Positions 19,233 to 30,840 of a DNA stretch of 38,559 nt are shown piece after piece. A program made the translations under genes and the position numbers. The stretch is from assembly GCF_002160865.1 (NCBI RefSeq), contig NZ_NFLJ01000029.1:1-38559 (forward strand). The letters run 5' to 3'. Position 1 is the first letter of the stretch, and each line of letters starts with the position of its first letter. This DNA is from Massiliimicrobium timonense (GTDB taxonomy: Bacteria; Bacillota_I; Bacilli_A; Erysipelotrichales; Coprobacillaceae). Below the pieces are notes generated by a model, which saw nothing but the letters and a program-made list of their open reading frames with translations, did not search any database and had not been told where the DNA came from.

Positions 19233-19937
19233 ATGAATATAAGAGATTTAGTATTATATTTTGCATTGAAGTATGAAGGTGATTTCAATAGGATATATGA
19301 TGCACTTTCAAATAAGGAAAAGTTTGATGGAGAAGCATTATGTAAAATGAAGGAACAGCTAGATTGTCAGTATATCAGTATATTTGATGAGGAATATCCA
19401 TCAGGATTAAGGAAAATCAACTGTCCACCATTTGTGCTTTTCTATAAGGGAAATATTGATTTGTTAGATGAAAAGACACTGTGTTTAATAACACCAGAAA
19501 GCAATCATTCGACTCAGGAGCTATAGAATCAATTTGTTGATGATATGATAGAAGATGATGAGTTTGTACTGGTTAAGCCACATAGAAGCTCTTTGGATGA
19601 TTATGCAGTTAAGACTATAAAAATTATGGATAGAGGTATTTCATTCTATGGTGATGTTGATAATATAAATACACTTGTTTTTAGTGAGTATCCTTATTAT
19701 GTCGAGCCACCAAAGAAGTATCTTCCTTTTTCGTATAGAATTGTCAGTGGTCTAGCAGATAAAATTGTGATGGCTCAATGCTATGATACAAATGAAGATA
19801 TCATGGCACTTGCTTATGCAATTGAGCAGAATAAAGATGTCTATATGATTGGAAATGAGTATGAGCTGTATGATATATTGAATCAACAGAAAATCAAGCA
19901 TATTGAAAACTATGGGGAGCTAGAGTCAGCAGTATGA
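19233..19937 (+). pseudogene. DprA/Smf-like protein gene interrupted by in-frame TAG
   Basis: One continuous frame of 235 codons has a single amber stop at 19524. The first part shows the DprA pattern YISIFDEEYPSGLRKINCPP followed by FVLFYKGN. The second part has FSEYPYYVEPPKKYLPFSYR with RIVSGLADKIVMAQ and the late ALAYAIEQNKDVYMIGNE, all in DprA order. The Rossmann GSR loop is poorly conserved even without the stop. Intact DprA loads RecA on single-stranded DNA, and copies in mobile elements presumably handle transferred DNA. No frameshift is needed, so it is either a recent nonsense mutation or two expressed halves. Confidence 0.75.
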
Positions 19938-23091: not shown

Positions 23092-23099
23092 CAAAATTA
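23092..23099. repeat. Left target-site duplication of the nested transposon
   Basis: CAAAATTA directly abuts the left terminal inverted repeat and is identical to 27098-27105. Confidence 0.85.
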
Positions 23100-23256
23100 T
23101 ACCCTACCCTACAAGTGAGTTGCTAAATATATAAAAAATTTATCCTTATATTTCAACATTTTTGAAGATTGAATAGTATTTTATATTTTAAAACATTACA
23201 TTTCATTTAAAGCCTTGTGGACATATATGTTCATATGTCTAAGTGTTAATTGGTCA
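23100..23256. repeat. Left terminal inverted repeat
   Basis: The outer 100 bases or so match the right repeat almost base for base. The inner part is looser but keeps TGTGGACATATA and TTGGTCA. It includes the palindrome GACATAT-ATGTTC-ATATGTC at 23220-23239. Confidence 0.88.
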
Positions 23257-23390
23257 ATATTAGAGATGAGATTATAATAAAAGAGATTAAGTATGTATAA
23301 TGTAAATAAAAATCATTTTAAATTTGAGTAATAAGTAGATACTATAGTATAATATTAGTGAAACTTATAAAATTAAAGGAGGGTATCTAT
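23257..23390. promoter_or_regulatory. Leader of the transposon cargo gene
   Basis: About 130 A/T-rich bases between the inverted repeat and the first gene. TATAAT at 23348-23353 is a plausible -10 about 37 bases before the start; I see no convincing -35. Confidence 0.35.
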
Positions 23391-23924
23391 ATGAAGAAAA
23401 AACAGATTATAATTTTTATCATTTCTTTTGTTTTAATAGTAGGTGTTGTTGCAATTATATCTATCAATAATACCAATTGGGTTGAAGGTGAAGAGTATTT
23501 ATATACCAAAGCCATTAATTATGTTGTTAATGATGTAGAAAAGGTAAGTGATTATAAAGATAAACAAGATTATCAAGTTTTTACGGACTATTTAATGTAT
23601 GGAATAGAAAAACAAGATACAAAAAGATATGTTTATATGTGGATACTTTATGAAGAATACTATGTTCAAGATAACAAGCTTATATTGGGGTCTGGAGCAT
23701 CAATGCCTTATAAGTTTACTTTTGAGAATGAAAATGTAATTAAATGTGTAACTGCTGAGGATGGAAGTAGATTTGAACCATCAATCAGAGAAATGTTTCC
23801 TGATGATATTGAAAATTTGCCACTTGAAGATTCATTATCTCCTTTATCACTAACACCCCAAATAGAATCATATTATTCATATCTTCCGTCAACGGAAATT
23901 CATTATGCAGATAATGAAGAATAA
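23391..23924 (+). CDS. Signal-anchored extracellular protein, transposon cargo
   Basis: This 177-residue product has a basic N-terminus (MKKKQ) and a hydrophobic segment at about 5-25, so it is exported or membrane-anchored. No lipobox is seen. The remaining domain is rich in Tyr and acidic residues and includes YVYMWILYEEYYVQDNKL, followed by SGASMPYKFTFENE, suggesting a small beta-rich fold. I recognise no family. AAAGGAGGG precedes the ATG at 23391. As the first gene inside the transposon it is cargo; immunity, surface or signalling functions are all open. Confidence 0.5.
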   Translation: MKKKQIIIFIISFVLIVGVVAIISINNTNWVEGEEYLYTKAINYVVNDVEKVSDYKDKQDYQVFTDYLMYGIEKQDTKRYVYMWILYEEYYVQDNKLILGSGASMPYKFTFENENVIKCVTAEDGSRFEPSIREMFPDDIENLPLEDSLSPLSLTPQIESYYSYLPSTEIHYADNEE

Positions 23925-23934
23925 TTTATAAAAT

Positions 23935-23973
23935 GAAAAATCATCATTACTTCCCATGTAGTGGTGATTTTTT
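23935..23973 (+). terminator. Terminator after the cargo gene
   Basis: AAAATCATCATTAC, a short loop and GTAGTGGTGATTTTTT pair with two G-U positions and end in a T-run about ten bases after the stop. Confidence 0.65.
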
Positions 23974-23975
23974 AC

Positions 23976-24070
23976 TTTAATCATGGTTAGAATTTGTTTA
24001 AATTATCAGCCAATATTATTACTTTATTGCTGGCAATAAAACCATATTTTGTTTTTGATTTAATCATGGT
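23976..24070. repeat. 12-bp direct repeat in the transposase leader
   Basis: TTTAATCATGGT occurs at 23976-23987 and 24059-24070, both followed by an AATTT-like stretch, in the 235-base gap before the transposase gene. It may be a binding site for a regulator or the transposase. Confidence 0.4.
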
Positions 24071-24159
24071 AAAATTTAAGAAGTAAAGCAATTGTTATTT
24101 GCACAAAGAGTTACATATTAACTATGTGAACTTAAATACTTTAAGAAAGGAATAAAACT

Positions 24160-26412
24160 ATGAGAAAGAAATTAAGTAAAGAACAAAAACAAATAGCTCT
24201 TAGTGCAAGTGAAGTCTATAACAAGACTCTTGAAGATAATGGATTAACAACTCTTGATGCAGAGATAGCAGAACTTGATAAAATGATTATTAGTAGATTA
24301 AGTGAAGTTGGCTATCATTTAGCTTGCCCAAATGATAATTGCCGTTCAACGGATATAAAAAAGAATGGTACTTCAAGGGGTGGACTTCAAAGATATATCT
24401 GTAAGACATGTGGTAAAAGTTTTACTCTTTTTACTGATACAGTTTTGGCTGGTATTCAATATCCCTTGCCAGTTATCATAAAAATAATCAAATATATGAT
24501 TAGCGGGGTTACCATTCCAAACATGAGCAGATATCTTAAAGAAAGCTACCCATCTACATATGAATTTGATGAAACAAGTTTAGCTGAAATAAGAATCAAA
24601 ATTATGAAAGCAATTCATGAGGCACAGCTCAAATATTTTGAAGCTAACCCATTAACAGGTATAATACAAATTGATGAGACCTACTTTCATGAAAACCAGA
24701 GCGGTACACCAGAACATAACCAATATAACCCTTATGAAGATATAAGAGGAAAAAGGACATCTCTCATCAATAAAAATGATGGTATACACAGCAAATCAAG
24801 AAATGGAAGTATTAAAGGTGATGAATTTTCAAATGTTGTTGTGGCTGTCAATTCCTATGGTCTTTGCATAAGTGCTCTGATAGGTGTTGGTCACACTGAT
24901 AGAAAATATCTTGATGAATACATCATGAAGTATATTGATATTAATAAAGTTGATGTATTCTGTTCAGATGCCAATAGTATTTTTGATGACTACTGTGTGG
25001 ATAATAATCTTGTACATTATGTCCTTCCATCAGGAAGTTATAAGAATTATAACAAAATTGGAGATATTGATGCATTAGGTCATCCCATTACTGAAAAAGA
25101 ACTTTTTGAAAAAGGAAAAATTGGTATCATTAAAAGAGGTAAAAGAAGACTTGGTTATAAGGAATTCAAGGATTATGAAAGTAAATACTATTTGAGTTTA
25201 AAAAGAGTCAACGGTATTCATAGTGAGCTTAAGAAAAAAATCAATGGAGTACATAACAGTGTTGTTACCAAGAACCTTAACTATTATACAAGCTGGTACT
25301 GTTTTTTAAGAAACTATCCCATCATCTTTACAGGAAAGACCATTTATGATGAAAGAACACCATTCATGATTCTTGCAATCATTCTTCAGCATTCAATGAA
25401 TATGACAAGAAAGAAAATGCAGAAAAGAACAATTAAGGATATTCCAAGAATTACTGGGTCTGACCTTAAGAAAATTGTCAAAAAGAACAATAAAATAAAC
25501 TCTCTTGGCTATCAAACACAGTTTGCAACAAATCCAGAAGCTCATTCATACAGACCAACAACAGATGCCATTAAAAGAATGAGCAAAGGTGAACTTCAGG
25601 ATTTTGCATTATTTCTTGGATTAAAAGGATGTAGTACAATGAAAGTTGAAGAATTAAGACATACTTTGTTTTCAACATCTTCACTATCTGATTTTCTCAT
25701 TAAATATGATATTTACCTTGGACGCATAAAAAGTAGTGAACTTGTAGAACATTACAAGGAAGATGAAAAAGTACGTAATGTAGAAAAAGAAAAAAGAAAC
25801 AACAAGAATCTAACCCCTGCTGAAACCTTTGAACAGTATTTTGCTAAATCTGTTGCTTATCACACCTATAAATACAAGGGGTCAAGAATCAAAGGCAAGA
25901 TTCAAGATAAAACTTTATTTATTGATATAGAAACAACTGGTCTGAATCCAAAAGAGGATGAAATTCTTGAACTTGCTATTGTAAATGGCTATGGTAATAC
26001 TGTTTTTCATTGCATGTTTAAACCCATTTATCACACTGAATGGCCTGAGGCTGAAAAAATAAATCATATTAAACCATCTGATGTTGAGACAATGTGTAAT
26101 ATAGAAAAATACAGAAAGGTACTACATAAAATATTTAAAGATGCTGATGAACTAATTTTTTATAATGCTAATTTTGATTTTGAATTCATAAGACCATTAA
26201 TTGATGGAAGAATTCTCAGAAAACTTGAAAGAACAAAAAAATGTTGCATGACAGCATACAAGGAATTAAAAGGACTTAATAAAAACTTCAAACTTATAGA
26301 TGCTGCTAAATCTTATAACATAGACTTTAATGAAAATGAACTACACGGAGCACTATATGATGCTCAACTTACAAGAGAAATATGGGTTAACATGTTTCCT
26401 ACATACTTTTAA
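24160..26412 (+). CDS. DDE transposase fused to a DEDDh 3'-5' exonuclease
   Basis: This 750-residue protein has an N-terminal zinc ribbon (Cys56, Cys61, Cys81, Cys84) with a DNA-binding region to about 150, then a DDE core of the ISXO2/IS1595 type. IIQIDETYF holds Asp172, VDVFCSDAN holds Asp270, and RVNGIHSELKKKI holds His354/Glu356 in the family's NxxHxxLK context. A linker at 470-515 resembles a SAP-type helix pair (SKGELQDFALFLGLKG). Residues 585-750 are a DnaQ-like exonuclease with all catalytic residues: FIDIETTGL (Asp589, Glu591), NANFDFEFI (Asp673), ELHGALYDAQLT (His729, Asp734). IS1595 transposases are normally about 300-350 residues. It should mobilise the surrounding element. Confidence 0.85.
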   Translation: MRKKLSKEQKQIALSASEVYNKTLEDNGLTTLDAEIAELDKMIISRLSEVGYHLACPNDNCRSTDIKKNGTSRGGLQRYICKTCGKSFTLFTDTVLAGIQYPLPVIIKIIKYMISGVTIPNMSRYLKESYPSTYEFDETSLAEIRIKIMKAIHEAQLKYFEANPLTGIIQIDETYFHENQSGTPEHNQYNPYEDIRGKRTSLINKNDGIHSKSRNGSIKGDEFSNVVVAVNSYGLCISALIGVGHTDRKYLDEYIMKYIDINKVDVFCSDANSIFDDYCVDNNLVHYVLPSGSYKNYNKIGDIDALGHPITEKELFEKGKIGIIKRGKRRLGYKEFKDYESKYYLSLKRVNGIHSELKKKINGVHNSVVTKNLNYYTSWYCFLRNYPIIFTGKTIYDERTPFMILAIILQHSMNMTRKKMQKRTIKDIPRITGSDLKKIVKKNNKINSLGYQTQFATNPEAHSYRPTTDAIKRMSKGELQDFALFLGLKGCSTMKVEELRHTLFSTSSLSDFLIKYDIYLGRIKSSELVEHYKEDEKVRNVEKEKRNNKNLTPAETFEQYFAKSVAYHTYKYKGSRIKGKIQDKTLFIDIETTGLNPKEDEILELAIVNGYGNTVFHCMFKPIYHTEWPEAEKINHIKPSDVETMCNIEKYRKVLHKIFKDADELIFYNANFDFEFIRPLIDGRILRKLERTKKCCMTAYKELKGLNKNFKLIDAAKSYNIDFNENELHGALYDAQLTREIWVNMFPTYF

Positions 26413-26419
26413 GATATAA

Positions 26420-26449
26420 AAAAGAACCTTCATATTGTAAGGTTCTTTT
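26420..26449. terminator. Bidirectional terminator inside the transposon
   Basis: AAAGAACCTT-CATATTGT-AAGGTTCTTT forms a 10-bp stem with A/T tracts on both sides, between the transposase gene and the convergent small gene. Confidence 0.8.
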
Positions 26450-26792
26450 ATACTATAAGCTCATATATATCATCAATTATGTCTTTGACTTCCTTATCAT
26501 ACAATTGGTCAGTATAAATATCATATTGTTTTAGATGTTTTACTTTTTCTTTCAATTCAAAATAGTATTCAATAAGCCATTCTGGTTCATCATAGTCCAT
26601 CTTAATAATATGTTTATAGATGAAACTAAGGTATTCAATGATGATGACTATATCCATAACGGTTTCAATAGTTGGTTCATCAATTTCTGTTACTTGAGTA
26701 AGCTGAATTCTTAATTCTTCAGCCCTTTCTATATAATAATCTTCATCAAAGACATCAGCAATCTTGTTGATATCTATTATTCCACTTACCAT
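26448..26792 (-). CDS. Small acidic helical protein in the transposon
   Basis: This 114-residue product is rich in Asp, Glu and Tyr, with helical repeats such as IERAEELRIQLTQV and ELKEKVKHLKQYD. There is no signal peptide or membrane helix. It is convergent with the transposase and shares its terminator. Acidic small proteins next to nucleases or transposases sometimes act as inhibitors or DNA mimics, but nothing here proves that. I do not recognise the family. Confidence 0.5.
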   Translation of the reverse strand: MVSGIIDINKIADVFDEDYYIERAEELRIQLTQVTEIDEPTIETVMDIVIIIEYLSFIYKHIIKMDYDEPEWLIEYYFELKEKVKHLKQYDIYTDQLYDKEVKDIIDDIYELIV

Positions 26793-26939
26793 GTTACATC
26801 TCTCCTTGATTTTAATTATAGCATAGCCAGTAGTGAAGATGAAGAAGTTGTTAAAGATTTAAAAGAGGATATACAATATAAGTTTAAATAACTATAAATA
26901 TTGAAAATAAATATAATTTCATTAAATATATTTAGTCTC
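26793..26939. other. Gap between small acidic gene and right inverted repeat
   Basis: No complete gene. A short plus-strand frame ending at 26891 encodes SSEDEEVVKDLKEDIQYKFK without a start codon and could be the tail of a lost gene. Confidence 0.35.
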
Positions 26940-27097
26940 TGACCAACAAAAAATTGGACATGAGAACGTATATGTCCACAAATTTTTAGCTAAAATATCA
27001 TGTTTTAAAGTAAAAAATACTATTCAATTTTCAAAAATGTTGAAATATAAGGATAAATTTTTTTATATATTTAGCAACTCACTTGTAGGGTAGGATA
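26940..27097. repeat. Right terminal inverted repeat
   Basis: Reverse complement of the left repeat, with TATCCTACCC at the tip. The internal GGACAT/ATGTCC pair at 26956-26977 corresponds to the left palindrome. Confidence 0.88.
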
Positions 27098-27105
27098 CAA
27101 AATTA
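27098..27105. repeat. Right target-site duplication of the nested transposon
   Basis: CAAAATTA immediately follows the right inverted repeat and matches 23092-23099 exactly. Confidence 0.85.
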
Positions 27106-27260: not shown

Positions 27261-27292
27261 TTTATTAAAGATTATGAAATGTGGTGATAAGT

Positions 27293-27862
27293 TTGAAAAT
27301 TGGATATATCAGAGTATCGACCGTTGAACAGAATATTGCAAGACAGGAAGTCATCATGAAGAAGCTGGATGTTGAAAAAATATTTATTGATAAAATTAGT
27401 GGTAAAAATAAGGAAAGACCTATGCTTAAGGAAATGATGGATTTTGTTAGAAGTGGTGATATTGTTGTTGTAGAATCAATCAGTCGTTTTGCACGTAATA
27501 CACGTGATTTGTTGGAACTGGTCGATCAATTGGTTGCTAAAGGAGTGCAATTTGTCAGCATGAAGGAAAAGATTGATACGTCTACACCATCAGGTAAGTT
27601 TATGCTTACTGTTTTTGGGGCTGTTGCTCAGCTAGAACGTGATTACATTCTTCAAAGACAAAAAGAGGGAATTGCCATTGCTAAGGCTAATGGCAAATAT
27701 CAGGGTAGAAAGAAAATTCAAAATGATAGATTTGATGAAATATATAAAAAATGGAAGAATAACGAAATGACTGCTATACAGGCAATGAAATTGCTGAATT
27801 ACAGCAAGACTACCTTTTATAGAAGAGTGAAGGAGATGAAAGAAAATGAAGAAAAAAGTTGA
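27293..27862 (+). CDS. Serine recombinase (resolvase/invertase family)
   Basis: This 189-residue protein has the usual size of Tn3-type resolvases. The catalytic serine is in KIGYIRVSTVEQN, with downstream SRFARNTRDLLELVD, VAQLERDYILQRQKEG and the long E-helix. A C-terminal helix-turn-helix covers about 140-185 (AIQAMKLLNYSKTTFYRRV). The start is TTG at 27293, since the frame upstream only offers GTGs without a site. It probably resolves multimers of the element or inverts a segment. RadC follows with a 17-base overlap. Confidence 0.9.
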   Translation: MKIGYIRVSTVEQNIARQEVIMKKLDVEKIFIDKISGKNKERPMLKEMMDFVRSGDIVVVESISRFARNTRDLLELVDQLVAKGVQFVSMKEKIDTSTPSGKFMLTVFGAVAQLERDYILQRQKEGIAIAKANGKYQGRKKIQNDRFDEIYKKWKNNEMTAIQAMKLLNYSKTTFYRRVKEMKENEEKS

Positions 27863-29181: not shown

Positions 29182-29219
29182 TGGATTATCTGCTATGCTT
29201 TTTATATGCTCTTGTGATT
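29152..29219 (+). promoter_or_regulatory. Candidate transcription attenuator of rtcB-prfH
   Basis: Terminator: AGCATAG (29175-29181) pairs with CTATGCT (29193-29199), then TTTTT. Alternative pairing: GAGCATA (29174-29180) with TATGCTC (29205-29211), plus AATCACAAG (29152-29160) with CTTGTGATT (29211-29219). The alternatives share the left arm and exclude each other. Confidence 0.55.
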
Positions 29220-29239
29220 GCTTGAACACAGGAGGATTT

Positions 29240-30256
29240 ATGAAAGTTAAAATAATGAAAAATAACAAGCTATGGATGGAGGACAATGCAATAAGACAGC
29301 TTGAGTCCATAGCGGATTTTAAAGGCGTTGAATCCATTGTAGGATTGCCCGATCTTCACATGGGAAAACAGCCTGTAGGATGTACTATTTGTACACAGCA
29401 ATTTATATATCCATTTCTAATAGGAAATGACATTGGATGTGGAGTAACCTTATATGAAACTCAAGAAAAGATAAGAAAGATAAAAGTAGAAAGACTTGTT
29501 AGAAAACTTGAGAATACAGGTATCTATGGAAAATACAGCATTGGTGGAGGAAACCATTTTATTGAATTAACTGCCATTGATAAGGTCTATAATCAAGATT
29601 TAGCTAATCAACTAGGTATTGATACAAAGAAAGCTTATTTGTTGATTCATTCAGGCTCTAGAGCTATAGGAGAATCAATCTATAGAGAATATGCTTCATT
29701 AGAAGGATTGGAAGAAGCTAGTGAAAGATTCAATTCCTATATTGAAGAACATGACAAAGCTATTGCATATGCAAGAGATAATCGCAATCATCTTGCTGAT
29801 ATATTTACACAAATGGCAAATATCAAATCAGATAATAGAATTGTCATTGATTGCATACATAATTATTTGGAAATGGTTGATGGGAAATACTATCATAGAA
29901 AAGGAAGCATATCATCATTGAGTCATACCTATGCGATCATAGCAGGAACAAGAGGGAGCTCTTCTTACATAGTGAAAACTATACCTCGTAATGATGAGTT
30001 GTACTCGGTGAGTCATGGATGTGGTCGAAAGATCATGAGAAGTGAGTGTAAGGGAAAACTTCAGTCAAAATATAAAAGAGATGAACTGAAAAGAACTTCA
30101 TTAGGAAGCTATGTCATATCAAAGGACAAGGCATTGTTATATGAAGAAGCAACGGAAGCGTATAAAAGAATAGATGACGTTATTGAAACACTTTTACAAT
30201 ACAAATGCATAGAAATTATCGCAACATTAAAACCAATGGTGACTTATAAATGTTGA
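29240..30256 (+). CDS. rtcB: RNA ligase RtcB (RtcB2-type)
   Basis: This 338-residue RtcB joins 2',3'-cyclic phosphate (3'-phosphate) ends to 5'-OH ends of RNA using GTP and Mn2+. The metal and catalytic residues are present: PDLHMG, NDIGCGV (Asp64, Cys67), GGGNHFIEL (His106), HSGSR (His137), DCIHNYL (His207) and the guanylated His259 in SHGCGR. It is shorter than E. coli RtcB (about 408), like the copies that travel with PrfH. AGGAGG precedes the ATG at 29240; the frame upstream overlaps the leader. It is coupled to prfH by an ATGTTGA overlap. It probably reseals rRNA cut by ribotoxins. Confidence 0.92.
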   Translation: MKVKIMKNNKLWMEDNAIRQLESIADFKGVESIVGLPDLHMGKQPVGCTICTQQFIYPFLIGNDIGCGVTLYETQEKIRKIKVERLVRKLENTGIYGKYSIGGGNHFIELTAIDKVYNQDLANQLGIDTKKAYLLIHSGSRAIGESIYREYASLEGLEEASERFNSYIEEHDKAIAYARDNRNHLADIFTQMANIKSDNRIVIDCIHNYLEMVDGKYYHRKGSISSLSHTYAIIAGTRGSSSYIVKTIPRNDELYSVSHGCGRKIMRSECKGKLQSKYKRDELKRTSLGSYVISKDKALLYEEATEAYKRIDDVIETLLQYKCIEIIATLKPMVTYKC

Positions 30257-30840
30257 TACAGATTAGTGCTGGACAAGGTTCACCAAAAGAATGTGAAATG
30301 GCATGTTATCTATTCTATAAGGAACTTTTAACAGAGTTTCCTGACCTTGAAGTTGTTTCAACAAATTTCAGTGATAAGCAATGTCTAAAGAGTGCTGTCT
30401 TTTACAGTGAGCAAGACCTATCTTTTTTGGAAGGAAGTGTTCAATGGATATGTCAAAGTCCATTTAGACCAAATCATAAAAGAAAAAACTGGTTTATTGA
30501 TGTGTCTATACTGCAAGATAAATTCAGATTTGATAAGGATGATGATATTAGATATGAAGCTTTTCGTTCGTCAGGTAAGGGAGGACAAAATGTAAATAAG
30601 GTATCTACAGCCATTAGGGCTATACATATACCAACAGGAATAAGCGTAGTATCAATGGATCAGCGTAGCCAGATTCAAAATAAGAAGATTGCTTATTTAA
30701 GGTTAATGAAAAAGATAGATGAGAAAAACTCATCTATCAATAAGGTTATACAATATGAAAATTGGAATAAGCATAATCAACTTAAAAGAGGTAGTCCTAT
30801 ACGAATTTATAAGGGGTTGAACTTTGAAAGAGAAAAATAG
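30250..30840 (+). CDS. prfH: Peptide chain release factor H
   Basis: This 196-residue class-I release-factor homologue contains the catalytic GGQ (residues 111-113) in RSSGKGGQNVNKVSTAIR, but lacks the N-terminal helical and stop-codon-reading domains of RF1/RF2. PrfH proteins occur almost only beside rtcB. Published work on RtcB2-PrfH shows rescue of ribosomes broken in the 16S decoding centre, with PrfH freeing the stalled peptide so that RtcB can reseal the RNA. The start lies inside the rtcB end (7-base overlap), so the two are made together. Confidence 0.93.
   Translation: MLIQISAGQGSPKECEMACYLFYKELLTEFPDLEVVSTNFSDKQCLKSAVFYSEQDLSFLEGSVQWICQSPFRPNHKRKNWFIDVSILQDKFRFDKDDDIRYEAFRSSGKGGQNVNKVSTAIRAIHIPTGISVVSMDQRSQIQNKKIAYLRLMKKIDEKNSSINKVIQYENWNKHNQLKRGSPIRIYKGLNFEREK

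Follow-up and report, generated by a model that had tools for sequence, protein, structure and literature searches.

An IS1595-like transposon encoding a transposase fused to a DEDDh exonuclease in Massiliimicrobium timonense

Transposon ends and gene content

The window analysed here is a 38,559-nucleotide stretch of Massiliimicrobium timonense DNA (contig NZ_NFLJ01000029.1), in which a complete transposon of 3,998 bp, with both ends present, occupied positions 23100-27097. It was flanked on both sides by the 8-bp target duplication CAAAATTA, whose left copy (23092-23099) matched the right copy (27098-27105) at all eight positions; the probability of a random 8-mer match at that single position is about 1e-4. 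The terminal inverted repeats lay at 23100-23260 on the forward strand (tip TACCCTACCCTACAAGTGAGTTGC) and at 26940-27097 on the reverse strand (tip TATCCTACCCTACAAGTGAGTTGC in the inward reading). They paired over about 157 bp with 87% identity and shared tips (TAYCCTACCCTACAAG), and were almost perfect across the outermost 70 bp. The match of the right end to positions 1-157 of the left end had an E value of 2e-48, far beyond chance. A sequence-only reading of the locus had proposed exactly these coordinates, and the long repeats and intact duplication that it described were confirmed. Its suggestion of a recent insertion held in part: the perfect duplication fits, but an empty site with joined flanks was found in none of 118 relatives, from which the flanks themselves were absent. 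The element was present once in its own genome, a draft of 113 contigs. Among viral contigs, an exact 17-mer of the end occurred once, by chance, within a gene resembling a phage terminase.

Inside the element, a single uninterrupted open reading frame on the forward strand (24160-26412) encodes a transposase-exonuclease of 750 amino acids. Upstream of it lies passenger gene A (23391-23924, forward strand, 177 aa), with an N-terminal membrane anchor predicted by eye. No Pfam or NCBIfam family scored above cut-off for this gene, and neither plasmids nor viral contigs held a match. Passenger gene C (26448-26792, reverse strand, 114 aa) is an open reading frame with no assigned family; searches of Pfam and NCBIfam above cut-off and of plasmids were likewise negative. 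Between the converging transposase gene and gene C is a terminator-like hairpin with T-runs on either side (26420-26449).

Other features of the window were seen outside the element. A serine recombinase gene (27281-27862; Resolvase, E 8e-45) begins 176 bp from the right duplication and is followed by a RadC-like gene. By eye, the adjacent open reading frames at 19233-19526 and 19545-19937 seemed to be fragments of one DprA-like protein, probably broken, and neighbouring RtcB-like and release-factor-H-like frames at 29195-30840 resembled the known rtcB-prfH pairing.

Domains of the fused protein

The N-terminal part of the protein contains a zinc ribbon (C56, C61, C81 and C84; 24325-24411, forward strand). 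It scored above cut-off with NCBIfam models NF048018 and NF050000 (IS1/IS1595; 43.5 bits against a cut-off of 28), and its cysteines were invariant in the alignment with relatives. The DDE-type core follows at residues 163-393 (24646-25338, forward strand). In an alignment with relatives and IS1595 transposases of standard length, D172, D270, N351 and K358 followed the DDNK pattern and H354 was almost invariant; either N351 or H354 may be the third metal ligand. Matches to Pfam and NCBIfam core models were weak. The NCBIfam IS1595 model matched the 750-aa protein with an E value of 1e-17 and 64.5 bits, under the curated cut-off of 75; relatives of the same clade scored 83 (L092), 80 (L094), 85 (L095) and 73 bits (L237). 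In the AlphaFold model, the pLDDT of the core was mostly about 75-95, with lower values at about residues 180-220 and 290-310. The solved fold closest to the model of residues 1-580 was the ISCth4 transposase (Z 12.0, 4.5 Å over 249 residues; Foldseek E 3e-4). Beyond the core, a SAP/Rho_N-like helical segment at residues 468-505 (25561-25674, forward strand) aligned with relatives that have no exonuclease. Its helices were modelled with pLDDT 69-86, and the Rho_N match in this segment of relative L237 (E 0.0096) was below cut-off.

The C-terminal residues 581-750 (25900-26409, forward strand) form a DEDDh exonuclease domain, identified by Pfam PF00929 and a motif check. Enzymes of this type work in the 3' to 5' direction. 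Residues 586-740 matched the RNase_T model (PF00929) with an E value of 1.5e-14 and 55.3 bits against a cut-off of 24, and the catalytic set was complete (D589, E591, D673, H729 and D734). By sequence the domain matched the PolC exonuclease (2p1j), RNase T and, weakly, Cas2-DEDDh (8fy9), and its identity to the plasmid and phage DEDDh matches was at most about 37%. The linker and exonuclease were modelled by AlphaFold at low confidence. With the exonuclease so poorly modelled, a Foldseek search of the full-length model produced no informative match. The combination of an IS1595-like DDE core and a complete DEDDh domain in one 750-aa protein, as originally read from the sequence, was thus upheld: the frame is uninterrupted and both catalytic sets are kept.

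Relatives and spread

Profile searches recovered large transposases (456-561 aa) that are IS1595-like but lack an exonuclease. Their hosts were members of the same order, including Absicoccus porci, as well as Streptococcus, uncultured Clostridia and Oscillospiraceae. In a 91-row tree with an arbitrary root, the window protein and seven exonuclease-less relatives formed one clade with support 100/99, within which the window protein was a long branch. These relatives were L035/L058, L036/L092 (Absicoccus porci), L094, L095 (Streptococcus saliviloxodontae), L093, L037 and L196/L237.

Several of the large transposases lay within recognizable elements. L094 had long inverted repeats, an 8-bp duplication (CTTTAATA) and a DUF4180 passenger. 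L099 also had long inverted repeats, an 8-bp duplication (AAATGGTA) and passengers, and its transposase was frameshifted. A 4.7-kb element at positions 4629-9289 of L237 was bounded by long inverted repeats and a 9-bp duplication (TTTAGCCGT), and carried two genes between the transposase and the right end, one radical SAM/SPASM-like and of the peptide-maturase type, the other encoding 169 aa. Within the stretches examined around L058, L059, L060, L095, L096 and L097, no convincing inverted repeats were found. Inside the ends of some relatives we observed TTTTATAAAA arrays (L237 4739-4919 and 8920-9171; L094 5369-5727; L099 2680-3037), each of 8 to 12 copies spaced by about 21-22 bp, sometimes 33. 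It is possible that these are iterons binding the transposase or a replication protein.

Because L094, L099 and L237 share them, long repeats, a large transposase and passengers are traits of the clade, as judged from these loci. The layout had been described at the outset as not known from any named IS family. For the fusion this stands, since we found no named family that has it; the size and the long repeats are common to the exonuclease-less clade. Only the exonuclease sets the window element apart, and the simplest reading is that this tail was added along the branch leading to the window protein.

A search for other proteins joining this core to a DEDDh domain, which the sequence-only reading had proposed, yielded none. 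With the transposase query or profile, no second fused protein was found in the element's own genome, in its family or order, or in the sampled genomes of its class and phylum; nor was one found in viral contigs, plasmids, phages or a contig set of 84,980 species. These searches were samples, pattern-based scans or scans of close relatives, in which absence is not proof. Evidence for the fusion thus comes from a single intact locus.

A second copy of the left end was found. G279, a genome of the same order but of another family, carried 1,149 bp of the left part of the element at an unrelated site, with 99% identity. The end of this copy (C9:350955-351121) was 98% identical to the left end in the window. 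In this remnant (L042) the body of gene A was kept and its ATG lost, the transposase was cut after codon 29, and no right end was present. The remnant stops before the exonuclease and therefore leaves the fusion unconfirmed. This nearly identical left part in another family is an independent line of evidence for movement of the element between lineages.

Possible role of the exonuclease

We consider it reasonably probable that the locus is a mobile DDE transposon in which the tethered DEDDh domain serves as an accessory nuclease on the 3' ends of the donor or an intermediate. The ends, the duplication, the spread between lineages and the conserved catalytic residues of both domains were observed directly, and from these a plausible course of events can be drawn. 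The zinc ribbon and nearby helices would bind the long inverted repeats. The DDNK core would then cut the 3' ends and join them to the target 8 bp apart, perhaps by way of a circular intermediate. Such an intermediate has been reported in the IS1595 family, in which mobilizable elements with circles are known and MTnSag1 forms a circle (PMC5704250). In one lineage, a 3'-5' exonuclease of the DEDDh type would have been added to the C-terminus by way of a linker. The exonuclease is evidently dispensable for cleavage and joining, because relatives without it leave clean 8-9-bp duplications. Its most likely task would be to attack 3' ends that lie beyond the protected end of the transposon, either by trimming the donor flank back to it or by breaking down the donor or aborted intermediates. 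We infer this role in transposition by analogy; trimming or destruction is suggested by the parallels with KolobokD and Cas2-DnaQ.

The main rival is an idle fused tail, since no intact fusion other than this one is known. According to this explanation the transposase gene lost its stop codon by accident where a captured exonuclease gene lay next to it, leaving a tail that does nothing in transposition. That the fusion was seen once and that the relatives move without an exonuclease are both in keeping with it, as is the somewhat lower GC3 of the exonuclease part (0.165, against about 0.23-0.25 for the rest). However, the domain has kept the full catalytic set despite deep divergence from every sampled homologue, a pattern that fits retained function over fresh capture. 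There is also no Met between residues 494 and 619, which makes separate production of the whole domain from an ATG near its start unlikely. We regard an accidental, non-functional fusion as rather doubtful, although it deserves serious weight. The exonuclease could alternatively be cargo, merely carried along, that protects the element or the host by degrading phage or plasmid DNA or by repair. The varied genes in the relatives, which encode radical SAM/SPASM-like and DUF4180 proteins, would agree with this, but here the exonuclease has no gene of its own: it is fused to the transposase and thereby tied to the transposon ends. We consider a cargo role improbable. As for an assembly or annotation artefact, which the sequence-only reading had named as a possible objection, the genome is a draft of 113 contigs with one intact copy only. 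Against this stand the single open frame, the paired repeats and the exact duplication around the element, as well as the recurrence in G279 of the left part, with the transposase gene up to codon 29. We judge an artefact very improbable.

An accessory nuclease in a mobile DDE transposon thus remains our preferred reading. A stronger form of it, in which the element represents a distinct class of bacterial transposon whose own 3'-5' exonuclease shapes the ends or clears the donor, and which arose independently of KolobokD and Cas2-DnaQ, is put forward tentatively and is less likely to be true than not to be. If the exonuclease does work in transposition, the protein would be a natural fusion of end cutting and end processing in bacterial DDE transposition, a counterpart of Cas2-DnaQ in CRISPR and of KolobokD among animals. 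The handling of donor and flanking 3' ends in IS1595-type transposition would then be directly testable. The wider branch of IS1595-like transposons, which are large, have long ends and carry diverse cargo, itself appears undescribed in the open-access literature.

Comparison with known systems

The IS1595 family comprises the groups IS1595, ISPna2, ISH4, IS1016, ISSod11, ISNwi and ISNha5, with Merlin as eukaryotic kin. The window element shares with the family and Merlin an N-terminal zinc ribbon and 8-bp duplications, and its core has the VN..H..LK (DDNK) motif that many members of standard length show. It differs in its transposase, which is roughly double the normal size, carries a C-terminal extension and the exonuclease, and falls below the curated NCBIfam cut-off. 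GG ends are reported for Merlin and IS1016-type elements, in contrast to the TAYCC tips here; Merlin repeats reach up to 462 bp (PMC8101967). We place the element in a large-transposase, divergent branch of the IS1595 (IS1/Merlin-like) superfamily and assign it to no named group, because the curated model score was missed. Its nearest kin, the 456-561-aa clade, have the same core and C-terminal extension, together with long repeats, 8-9-bp duplications and passengers in L094, L099 and L237. They differ in the absence of the exonuclease, and Oscillospiraceae-type members have the TTTTATAAAA arrays that are absent from the window element.

In the open-access literature we found no account of a fusion between a bacterial transposase and a DEDDh exonuclease and no described IS family with the same architecture, in line with the original claim of novelty. 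The closest described parallels of the fusion are KolobokD and Cas2-DnaQ. KolobokD elements are eukaryotic DDD/E transposons encoding a DEDDh exonuclease; according to the authors' proposal, this enzyme breaks intermediates down starting at the 3' end (PMC9587614). The likeness, drawn from that description, is a DDE-type transposon that encodes a DEDDh enzyme, whereas KolobokD belongs to another superfamily, has animal hosts and carries a TREX/ERI1-like exonuclease. The zinc ribbon, core and duplication of the window element point to IS1595 over Kolobok. In the case of Cas2-DnaQ, duplexes with 3' overhangs are processed by the adaptation complex and then integrated by it (PMC8616872). Cas2-DEDDh (DnaQ) of type I-E CRISPR resembles the window protein as integrase machinery with a fused DEDDh domain and 3'-end processing; unlike it, the CRISPR system uses the Cas1 integrase, not a DDE transposase, and inserts spacers, not a transposon.
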